Source: an uncultured SAR116 cluster alpha proteobacterium (GTDB taxonomy: Bacteria > Pseudomonadota > Alphaproteobacteria > Puniceispirillales > Puniceispirillaceae). From it: a stretch of DNA of 64,000 bases. The DNA lies in contig CACNSW010000001.1 of the NCBI GenBank assembly GCA_902623185.1, forward strand, positions 53,273 to 117,272. The letters run 5' to 3'. A model generated the notes under the pieces. The model was not told where the DNA came from, searched no databases, and saw only the letters and a list, made by a program, of their open reading frames with translations. A program made the translations under genes and the position numbers. Shown in pieces: positions 3,128-64,000 of the stretch; position 1 is the stretch's first letter, and each line of letters starts with the position of its first letter.

Positions 3128-3724
3128 ATGGCAGACAAACAAACGCTTAACGTTTATGACGATAATGTGGATAAATACCGACAGCTCGTCGATAAGCTAC
3201 CAGAACTTGAGTCGATTACTCAATTCACCAGACAACTTAACCCTGGGGCGCTGATACTTGATTTAGGCTGCGGCATAGGCAATGCGGCGGCTCGGATGCG
3301 TGAACGGGGGTTTAACCTTGAATGCATTGATGGATCGCCCGAGATGGTCAAGGCCGCAAATGACACCTTTTCTTTGAATGCCAAGACGGCTTTTTTCAGT
3401 GACCTAGATACGATTGCGCATTACGACGGGATATGGGCCAACTTCAGCCTACTGCACACGCCCAAAGCAGATTTTCCAGCGAATTTACAGGCGATTAATA
3501 CTGCCCTAAAACCCGGAGGCTATTTTTTCATATCGCTAAAAACTGGAGAAGGTGAAAACCGTGATGTGCTTGGCAGATTCTATGCCTATTATAAGGAAGA
3601 TGAACTGAAAAACCTATTGCTACAAACCGGCTTCAAGCCGGGTCACACAAAGCGAGGTAAGTTGCGCGGCATGGCCGGCGATTTAGAGGATTGGTTTAGT
3701 GTCATCAGTTGTAAACAAAGGTAG
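3128..3724 (+). CDS. Class I SAM-dependent methyltransferase
   Basis: Motif I LILDLGCGIGNAAARM, plus LNTALKPGGYFFISLKTG. Confidence 0.85.
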   Translation: MADKQTLNVYDDNVDKYRQLVDKLPELESITQFTRQLNPGALILDLGCGIGNAAARMRERGFNLECIDGSPEMVKAANDTFSLNAKTAFFSDLDTIAHYDGIWANFSLLHTPKADFPANLQAINTALKPGGYFFISLKTGEGENRDVLGRFYAYYKEDELKNLLLQTGFKPGHTKRGKLRGMAGDLEDWFSVISCKQR

Positions 3725-60912: not shown

Positions 60913-61101
60913 GGATTGCCATTTAGTTTGTTTATCACTAAAAAACTTTGACCTTTCAATAACAGAACAGCCGATAAGCGGATTAAGAAAGCGACGCGTG
61001 TTTGTCAATAAAGAAGTCACTTCATGGCCCCAAAAACAATTAAAAAGCGCCAACGCATTCAAAAGCAACAAGCTAGCCATTGTCCCCCACGAAAGTTAAG
61101 T

Positions 61102-61896
61102 ATGGCAGGCAAAAGTGAACGCGACGCAGCAAAGTCAAGCACAAATGCTCCCAAACCCCCAGTGGGCACATTTTTTATCTGGGGTCGGCATGCTGTATTA
61201 GCTGCGCTGGCCAATCCGAAACGCCGAATAGCAAAGCTGTACGCAACAGCTGATGCAACCAAGGTTCTTGTCCAGGTAATGGCCAAATACAACAATAACT
61301 TGCCTGCGCCAACACCCACTGAACGCCAAATCCTCGATGCCGTCACCAGCGATGGCGAAAAGGCAGTTCATCAAGGCATGGTTGCAGCGGTGTGGCCACT
61401 TGATGCACCACTCCTTAAAGATATTCTGGTCAGCGCCAGCAAAGTGCCGTTCAGATTGGTCCTGCTCGACCAACTATCCGACCCGCGCAATGTTGGCGCG
61501 ATTATGCGTTCGGCTCGCGCCTTTGGTGTAGCCGCGATAATCGTCACTCATCGCAATGCCCCCGAAGAGAATGGCGCTCTTGCCCGCACAGCTGCTGGTG
61601 CACTTGAGCATGTGCCGCTAATTCGCGTTGTCAATTTGGCGCGCACAATCGAAATTTTGCAAAGAGCTGGTATTACCGTTGCCGGTCTGGCGGGAGATGG
61701 GGTGATGGGGGTGCAAACTCTTTCACAATTTCCACGTCTTGCTGTCGTAATGGGTGCTGAAGGGCGGGGTTTACGTCGCTTAACGCGTGATCATTGCGAT
61801 CATCTTGTTAAGATCGAGATAAATGAAGATACAAATAGTTTGAATGTATCGAATGCTGCTGCCATAGCTCTACATGCTGCCAAAACAGGCAATTGA
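61102..61896 (+). CDS. rlmB: TrmH/SpoU-family rRNA 2'-O-methyltransferase (RlmB-like)
   Basis: LVLLDQLSDPRNVGAIMRSARAFG; VMGAEGRGLRRLTRDHCDHLVKIEI; SLNVSNAAAIALH. Confidence 0.92.
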   Translation: MAGKSERDAAKSSTNAPKPPVGTFFIWGRHAVLAALANPKRRIAKLYATADATKVLVQVMAKYNNNLPAPTPTERQILDAVTSDGEKAVHQGMVAAVWPLDAPLLKDILVSASKVPFRLVLLDQLSDPRNVGAIMRSARAFGVAAIIVTHRNAPEENGALARTAAGALEHVPLIRVVNLARTIEILQRAGITVAGLAGDGVMGVQTLSQFPRLAVVMGAEGRGLRRLTRDHCDHLVKIEINEDTNSLNVSNAAAIALHAAKTGN

Positions 61897-62096: not shown

Positions 62097-62172
62097 GCTG
62101 GTGTGGCTCAATTGGTAGAGCACCCGATTTGTAATCGGGCGGTTGGGAGTTCGAGTCTCTCCACCAGCACCA
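62097..62172 (+). tRNA. tRNA-Thr (anticodon TGT), CCA encoded
   Basis: GCTGGTGTGGCTCAATTGGTAGAGCACCCGATTTGTAATCGGGCGGTTGGGAGTTCGAGTCTCTCCACCAGCACCA. Confidence 0.97.
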
Positions 62173-62253
62173 CTTTCCTGCATCACATCTAGTGTAACCG
62201 ATTGTATTGCAACAGATTAACTGTCTGCATGTTGATTGGTATGCAACAAAATG
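62157..62253 (+). repeat. Left arm of 97-bp inverted repeat; starts inside tRNA-Thr T-arm, ends on the integrase ATG
   Basis: CTCTCCACCAGCACCACTTTCCTGCATCACATCTAGTGTAACCGATTGTATTGCAACAGATTAACTGTCTGCATGTTGATTGGTATGCAACAAAATG; 95/97 identical to the reverse complement of 63875-63971. Confidence 0.97.
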
Positions 62254-63417
62254 AGAAACAAATATGATGCTCCCTACGTGCTATTCCGTGATGGTATTTA
62301 CTACTATGTGAGGCGTATTCCACACGACCTCACCACCTTCTACTCAGTCAAACGCTTATGCTTCAGCTTGAAGACCAAGTCGTGTGTCTCAGCTAAGCGG
62401 CTGTCCACTTCTGTTACTCAAAGGCTGGACGATTATTGGCTAGGCTTGCGCCTCCAGAATATGGACATTCCAGCTATTCAGCTTGTAAAAACCGATGACA
62501 AGATAGCTGAAGACACTACTCCCCTGCTCTCTGATGCCCTTGACCTCTATCTCCGCCTAAAAGCAGTCGGTAAGGACAAGGTGTTTGTGAGGACAGCCAA
62601 TAGGAATGTTGGCTATGTGATAAAGGTCTTAGGTGACAAGCCAATCAGACAATACTCATCCTCTGAAGCAGCTACATTCCGTGATTGGTTAATTAAACAA
62701 AGCATGTCCATGAGGACAGTAAAACGAGTCTTTGCGTCTGTCAGAGCCGTTGTAAACCTCACCATAACTGAACATGGATTGGACTGTGTAAATGGCTTTG
62801 CAAAAACTTACTTTCCTGCTGACGAGGCCATCAACGACAGATTGGCTATTCCCAAAGAGGACATAACAAAGGTTCAAGCCCTTTGTGTTGAAATGGATGA
62901 TGACATACGATGGCTCATCGCCTTGATCAGCGATACTGGCATGAGACTGGGAGAAGCTGCCGGTCTTCATATGGATGACATTAAACTGGATGAACCAATC
63001 CCATACATTGATCTCAAACCTCATCCGTGGCGGTCACTAAAGACCAAAGGTAGTCAACGTTGCATTCCACTCATTGGTGCTGCTCTATGGGCTTGTGAGA
63101 GGCTTAGAGAAGCCAATGACGGCAGTTCTCTGGCCTTCCCACGCTACTGCAACAAACAGTCTTGTAATGCGAACTCAGCTAGTGGTGGGTTAAATAAGTG
63201 GCTGCAGACACACGTGCCTGATGGATGTGTAATCCATAGCTTTAGGCATAGTCTTCGTGATCGTCTCAGAGCAGTGGAATGTCCATCAGACATCGTTGAT
63301 GCTATTGGTGGTTGGAAGACTGCTGGTGTGGGGCATGGATATGGAGATGGTTACCCATTGGATGTGCTGGCGAAGTGGATGGCTACCTTTGACCCAAGTC
63401 CTAGGTTACCAAAATAG
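62251..63417 (+). CDS. Tyrosine recombinase/integrase
   Basis: RWLIALISDTGMRLGEAAGLHMDDI, HSFRHSLRDRL, GYGDGY at C-terminus; next to tRNA-Thr. Confidence 0.9.
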   Translation: MRNKYDAPYVLFRDGIYYYVRRIPHDLTTFYSVKRLCFSLKTKSCVSAKRLSTSVTQRLDDYWLGLRLQNMDIPAIQLVKTDDKIAEDTTPLLSDALDLYLRLKAVGKDKVFVRTANRNVGYVIKVLGDKPIRQYSSSEAATFRDWLIKQSMSMRTVKRVFASVRAVVNLTITEHGLDCVNGFAKTYFPADEAINDRLAIPKEDITKVQALCVEMDDDIRWLIALISDTGMRLGEAAGLHMDDIKLDEPIPYIDLKPHPWRSLKTKGSQRCIPLIGAALWACERLREANDGSSLAFPRYCNKQSCNANSASGGLNKWLQTHVPDGCVIHSFRHSLRDRLRAVECPSDIVDAIGGWKTAGVGHGYGDGYPLDVLAKWMATFDPSPRLPK

Positions 63418-63877
63418 AAAAACCAATTCCCAACGATAGACCAAAAATTGAATGCATCATTAACGCCAATGCACACGACAAAATTGGATTAGGGGTTTTA
63501 TTTGCAAGCACACCATTGCCCATTGCTGGCATAAAAAAGAACCACGGCACAACTACACTTGCGATACCAAATGCAAGTCCATCAAGAGGCGTAGAATTCA
63601 AAAAACCTAAATCTATCAGGAAACCAAAAACACCTGCATAGACTACAGCTACTGAGTAGTGCACGAACCAACCCGCAAATGTTTCGTATTTTTCTTTGGG
63701 CTGCCCCGCAAGCTGGCTAGCGAATAATCTGCCTTTGCTTATTAGGCCAATAAACCAACGACCCACAAGAGACCAATTGGTTGGAGGTATGGTTGTAAAT
63801 ACTTGGAACAATCGCTGCCAAAGGTCAAAGACGGCACACGAGCCAATGCCTATAAGCAACCATTCCGTGTATGGCAT
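63401..63877 (-). CDS. DUF2938-like membrane protein
   Basis: WLLIGIGSCAVFDLWQRLF, GRWFIGLISKGRLF, GWFVHYSVAVVYAGVFG, PWFFFMPAMGNGVLANKTPNP pattern. Confidence 0.75.
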   Translation of the reverse strand: MPYTEWLLIGIGSCAVFDLWQRLFQVFTTIPPTNWSLVGRWFIGLISKGRLFASQLAGQPKEKYETFAGWFVHYSVAVVYAGVFGFLIDLGFLNSTPLDGLAFGIASVVVPWFFFMPAMGNGVLANKTPNPILSCALALMMHSIFGLSLGIGFSILVT

Positions 63878-63971
63878 TTTGTTGCATACCAATCAACATG
63901 CAGACAGTTAATCTGTTGCAATACAATCGGCTACACTAAATGTGATGCAGGAAAGTGGTGCTGGTGGAGAG
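63875..63971 (-). repeat. Right arm of 97-bp inverted repeat; ends on the DUF2938-like ATG
   Basis: Reverse complement matches 62157-62253 with two substitutions (CATCACATTTAGTGTAGCC versus CATCACATCTAGTGTAACC). Confidence 0.97.
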
Positions 63972-64000
63972 TAGGTCTGCGCTACTTATAAGCACCACTA

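Follow-up and report, generated by a model that had tools for sequence, protein, structure and literature searches.

What kind of mobile unit is formed by an integrase gene enclosed, together with one convergent neighbour, between two long inverted repeats beside a tRNA gene? The question is raised by the right end of the window, by which we mean the whole 64,000-nucleotide stretch of DNA that was analysed. It comes from an uncultured member of the SAR116 cluster, a lineage of small genomes that is abundant in the surface ocean.

The tRNA-Thr(TGT) gene at 62097-62172 (forward strand, found by ARAGORN) is the integration target and donor of attB. Upstream, an rlmB/TrmH-like rRNA methyltransferase gene (61024-61896, forward; an ORF named from its sequence) constitutes the chromosomal flank, and it adjoins the same tRNA gene in many genomes of the family, some of them without the element. 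The attL core (62157-62175, forward) is made of the final 16 nt of the tRNA gene and 3 nt more, with an inverted copy at 63953-63971. With this core begins the left inverted arm (62157-62253, forward), which overlaps the tRNA by 16 nt and continues as a leader, the inner arm of the attachment site, to the integrase ATG, placed 78 nt past the part of the core inside tRNA-Thr (62157-62172). The right inverted arm (63875-63971, reverse) consists of leader' and the inverted core of a second site, attP-B, and faces the cargo gene. Each arm measures 97 bp; they are identical at 95 of 97 positions (97.9%) and, when lengthened by 7 nt, at 99 of 104. As the next longest inverted pair between 61 and 64 kb has just 13 nt, this match is not due to chance.

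The arms enclose 1,621 bp (62254-63874) and two convergent genes, whose 3' ends share 17 nt. The first (62251-63417, forward) encodes a tyrosine integrase of 388 aa with DUF6538 and Phage_integrase domains, the latter matched in Pfam with E=2e-10; its catalytic residues R232, K264, H329, R332, W355 and Y364 are invariant in 16 relatives. The second (63401-63877, reverse; 158 aa from its ATG) is an ORF of the Pfam DUF2938 family and the cargo gene of the integrase arc. The last triplet of each arm is the ATG of the gene that it faces, and the leader is common to both genes. A sequence-only reading of the locus had described the arms and their identity, the convergent pair with its interior and overlap, and the common leader; our recomputation, the ORFs and Pfam reproduce all of these exactly. 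Also supported is its wider proposal, in which tRNA-Thr harbours a mobile module of integrase and cargo whose recombination sites are inverted.

Past the right arm, the outer flank of attP-B is present for its first 29 nt (63972-64000, reverse), which comprise spacer S and a partial core, AGCACCACTA. They are homologous to the spacer of relatives (for example TAGGTCTGCGCTAC...GCACCA), and no second copy occurs elsewhere in the window's assembly. The contig (C1 of genome G000) ends here at position 117272, which is the end of the window, inside the flank called X below; a repeated X would cause such a break. A search of the same assembly (1.76 Mb, 65% complete) found neither the attR of the element nor its outer arc, so the full structure was read from relatives. 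By its sequence, the window shows the tRNA-proximal half of the element only: attL, the integrase, the cargo and the start of attP-B.

Among 61 genomes of the window's taxonomic family, 38 encode close homologues of the integrase, often more than one. Equivalent arms are present in 74 elements. Elements at unrelated loci have ~115 nt or more of conserved sequence in common outside the distal arm, the flank X. In 14 elements X, S and the core recur downstream in direct orientation; X there matches, in inverted sense, the sequence just outside the distal arm over 189-1148 bp at 96-100% identity. The core reached in this way is attR, which repeats the tRNA 3' end directly and is preceded by X. 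It was found in L057, L059, L063, L081, L082, L145, L186 and L206, then from longer flanks in L055, L062, L064, L065 and L066, and finally on a closed megaplasmid of Ruegeria sp. TM1040 (NC_008043); L062, L063 and L064 all come from one single-contig genome of 2,753,527 bp. These 14 elements measure 3.2-15.8 kb from attL to attR. For L058, L060 and L211, no attR was found within about 20-27 kb.

Since X is conserved outside the arm and attR lies kilobases further on, the limits of the mobile unit are not set by the arms, contrary to what had been supposed from the window: the relatives run on past the distal arm to a direct attR 3-16 kb away. Nor do inverted copies stand in place of direct att repeats, the other part of that proposal, since the relatives have the usual direct attL and attR and the inverted arm is an extra, complete site in the middle of the element. 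The 97-bp arm is thus the core and inner arm of such a site. As read from these alignments, the complete attachment site is X-S-core-leader, the core being the tRNA 3' end, and it is present twice in inverted orientation, once facing the integrase and once facing the cargo. The outer ends of X and of the leader hold short repeats, similar inside one element but not from one element to another (GGTCTACC in L186 and L197, GTACTAC in L209 and L211, TGTACATCA in L081); about half of the elements checked have no exact repeated 6-mer common to both ends. As putative arm sites of the cognate integrase, these repeats are suggestive only.

The element of TM1040, a laboratory strain, lies at tRNA-Phe with TM1040_RS03195 as its DUF6538 integrase gene; over 12.8 kb it shows in order the attL core, the inverted core of attP-B and the direct core of attR. 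Its inner repeats (85 bp) and outer repeats (1,148 bp) are both 100% identical; the outer ones include a BRO gene, annotated twice, and the outer arc is formed by type I restriction-modification genes. The locus (L288, NC_008043.1:565000-600500) contains the element with its type I restriction-modification system and SprT, and its neighbour is a second island, which holds AlpA, an integrase and more genes of the restriction type.

In several SAR116 elements attR leads directly into an older element's leader, which shows that insertion at the core is precise. At tRNA-Thr(TGT) in the family and at tRNA-Phe in Ruegeria, a search for an unoccupied site with the same right flank gave no clean case, as the right flanks are too variable to place a boundary; the precision of insertion rests on the tandem elements.

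Partial forms were also observed. In L136 (G027), tRNA-Thr is followed directly by X without an integrase, apparently a remnant with a deleted integrase arc. Two Ruegeria genomes carry solo X-S-core half-sites (L271:4970-5109, and L272 on the reverse strand near 3543-3690), in which a tRNA-Leu(CAG) 3' end lies amid ordinary genes without leader, integrase or tRNA. A partial direct core inside X, named O*, was considered as the crossover point and rejected: the remnant L136 fits it, but attR is elsewhere.

We propose an integrative element with two attachment sites. The one facing the integrase, attP-A, would be split by integration into attL and attR; attP-B, facing the cargo gene, would stay whole in the integrated element. 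The integrated order reads tRNA-core-leader-int> <cargo-leader'-core'-S'-X'-(outer arc genes)-X-S-core, followed by the chromosome or the next element. What is seen in the relatives is this order, in all 14, with direct attL and attR cores, the inverted second site and near-identical copies within each element. By attL x attR recombination the integrase would excise a circle, in which two inverted recombinase targets would divide the integrase arc from the cargo arc, a layout like that of the yeast 2-micron plasmid. Exchange between the site copies, by homologous recombination or by the integrase, would homogenise them and flip the outer arc. We regard this anatomy, together with integration by attP-A, as very probable, a judgement that leaves the role of the second site aside.

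The two arms of one element are much alike. Their identity has a median of 98.8% and is at least 95% in 65 of 74 elements, against a median of 59% between elements; in 63 of the 74, an arm is closer to its own partner than to any arm of another element. In 55 of 62 relatives, the distal arm reproduces exactly the last 14 nt of the local tRNA. Discordant cores also occur: L055 has the tRNA-Gly(TCC) 3' end at attL and attR and a tRNA-Arg-type core in attP-B, and L087 has one Arg and one Phe core. The same glycosyltransferase-like cargo is found at tRNA-Leu (L065) and at tRNA-Thr (L091), each time with the local core in both copies. Discordant cores and shared cargo at different tRNAs suggest that elements may be retargeted and then homogenised.

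As roles of the second site, retargeting with arc exchange and amplification of the 2-micron kind seem about equally plausible. Tentatively, the excised element may be a full 2-micron analogue, whose integrase would flip the arcs in replication and amplify the circle, while the paired sites would hold different tRNA addresses (as in L055 and L087), retargeting with one and keeping the old address in the other; we think this rather unlikely in its entirety. The second site could also be a functionless by-product, an inverted duplication whose copies stay alike through gene conversion, a reading that concerns its role and not the anatomy. The repeats, with the lengths given above and at times a coding gene (BRO) inside, look as expected from homologous exchange and not from selection on the site alone. 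This reading is an unlikely one to us, since the inverted arms are found in 32 of the 39 relatives with enough flank to be assessed (SAR116, roseobacters and others), across integrases as little as ~45-50% identical to one another, whereas integrase relatives at ~25-40% identity are without them.

An invertible switch, in which the integrase flips the int/cargo segment and causes phase variation of the DUF2938 gene, would also suit the inverted cores and the leader that the two genes share; inversion of this interior had been proposed from the window. Such a switch is improbable. If frequent, it would show both orientations, whereas the integrase is tRNA-proximal in ~60 tRNA-adjacent units, against one clear flipped case, L178 (=L092), with tRNA-Arg at the cargo end, and a doubtful one, L162, with a tRNA on both sides of the unit. 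Many units, moreover, have no cargo in the integrase arc. In L162, from the single-cell genome AG-343-K16, an inverted duplication of 376 bp and 99% identity places a whole tRNA-Leu(TAA) gene at either side of the unit; this could be a chimera from amplification. Equal use of the two sites would make half of the elements int-distal; as few are seen, either the two sites differ in practice or strong selection acts.

The outer arc, relative to the integrase, is found in both orientations among related elements. L183:10702-11772 and L186:12996-11892 match in opposite sense at 87% over 1.1 kb, well past the 241-bp repeat; L080 and L145 are likewise opposite, as are L167 and L183, and L090 and L145 are concordant. 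We infer that the outer arc flips over evolution and the integrase arc almost never. With long outer and short inner repeats, this flipping could proceed by homologous recombination alone; integrase action may contribute but is not needed.

Among 88 arm-bounded units, the integrase is alone in 32, which measure ~1.35 kb and are outwardly insertion-sequence-like; in 56 it is accompanied by further sequence, mostly one convergent gene. Such integrase-only units, and arms that stop exactly at both ATGs, could point to a compact cassette or insertion-sequence-like element, bounded by the 97-bp arms and moving or inverting as a 1.8-kb unit. We find this very improbable, given the sequence conserved outside the distal arm, the direct core copy kilobases on in 14 elements and the almost fixed orientation of the integrase; the arm-bounded segment also has no flanking direct repeat. 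Finally, an assembly or amplification artefact (foldback or chimera), evoked by a contig that stops 29 nt past the right arm, and likewise the misassembly at that arm of which the sequence-only reading had warned, is nearly negligible: the same layout lies inside contigs of many independent genomes (isolates, single-cell genomes, metagenome bins, some of the genomes being single contigs, and a closed replicon), the interior genes differ, and the break is the one that a repeated X would cause.

Two further readings were tried and rejected. An integron-like attC array was suggested by an imperfect hairpin into which the distal site can fold, and was given up since the integrase is not of the IntI type and the logic of an array did not hold. 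The match between distal cores and the local tRNA first seemed to require that each insertion copy the local tRNA end into the distal arm; in a simpler account, the distal arm is a second attP and its core must match the target.

The family as a whole targets tRNA-Leu, Thr, Arg, Gly, Phe, Asn and Ser. Beyond the SAR116 clade, related loci occur, by record names, in Ruegeria, Roseivivax, Thioclava, Maritalea and strain BAL199, and in single bins labelled Cellvibrionales and Gammaproteobacteria. Phage records contain no related integrase above 30% identity, and no phage structural genes were recognised in the element arcs inspected. The window's genome itself holds further copies. On contig C21, the same int/DUF2938 pair, with a decayed integrase, lies at tRNA-Thr(CGT) between inverted arms (78% over 92 bp) that hold the 3' end of this tRNA. 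Contig C7 has a decayed unit with ~370 bp of inverted similarity (81%), extending past the arms into the common flank; its convergent cargo resembles a SOUL-type protein. Several integrase fragments are found on contig C11, where an array of partly decayed like units (L024:1-14100) occupies another core (...ACCTCTCGGGTGCGCC); its apparent convergent cargo includes genes named from their sequence as DsbA-like and LysE-like.

A protein of ~450 aa recurs in the outer arcs (L145:12374-13720, reverse; L081:4463-5809, reverse; L206:15064-16431, forward; L008:2382-3755, forward; and ~15 other loci). It corresponds to phrog_4756, with a weak match to a phage RNA polymerase family, and finds no match in Pfam or NCBIfam. 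Its invariant D-x-S-Q, R-xxx-K and H-D-S-F motifs recall polymerases of the pol A / T7-RNA-polymerase type; its AlphaFold model (pLDDT 49) is too poor for use.

The family is apparently an undescribed kind of mobile island, widespread in marine bacteria: it is present in most sampled genomes of the same family and in cultured roseobacters, carrying, for example, restriction-modification genes. A literature search with partial journal coverage, and hence no proof of absence, found no description of such elements; on two attP sites, the literature consists of engineering papers. Through the discordant cores, the change of target tRNA by an integrase becomes open to study.

For a site-specific integrative element whose two attachment sites mirror each other, no counterpart was found; several known systems share some of its traits. 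Rci/Fim-type invertible segments combine a tyrosine recombinase with inverted sites; unlike them, the present element has a near-fixed integrase arc and direct att sites, and is an island. Mobile integrons likewise have a recombinase beside a primary site, cargo arrays and an imperfect hairpin at the distal site, whereas our element has no attC cassette array, targets a tRNA and has an integrase far from the IntI type (TIGR02249, 13.9 bits against a cut-off of 265). Close in habit are the tRNA-targeting islands with tyrosine integrases (tycheposons and PICMIs among them), alike in the integrase next to attL at the tRNA 3' end, direct attL/attR cores, restriction-modification-type cargo and tandem accretion. 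They are not known to have the traits that set the window's family apart: two complete inverted sites per element, one leader for integrase and cargo, and long homogenised inverted repeats.

Strand-biased circularizing integrative elements (SEs), Tn554, GInt and RIT elements (PMC10214605) are also tyrosine-recombinase elements with inverted repeats. SEs use two recombinases and imperfect repeats of 13-19 bp, RITs three recombinases and 34-bp terminal repeats (PMC10214605); the present element, in contrast, has one integrase, internal inverted repeats and a tRNA 3' end as target. The terminal inverted repeats that mark insertion sequences, SEs and RITs are absent: the inverted arms are internal, and the termini in relatives are direct cores.

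The yeast 2-micron plasmid carries 599-bp repeats holding FRT, exists as isomers and undergoes double rolling-circle amplification (PMC3147054). Like it, the present element has two inverted repeats, each with a tyrosine-recombinase target, and two arcs, one of them with the recombinase gene, and its circle would allow two isomers (PMC3147054). Two inverted, target-bearing repeats separating two arcs are present in the sequence of relatives such as TM1040, and the window shows one arc. Unlike the plasmid, the element integrates in tRNA genes and uses a bacterial DUF6538 integrase instead of Flp; its repeats measure about 0.3 to 1.2 kb, and its circle, with any replication or amplification, is putative. 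Should this circle isomerise, the element would parallel, in bacteria, the way in which the 2-micron plasmid is built to amplify.
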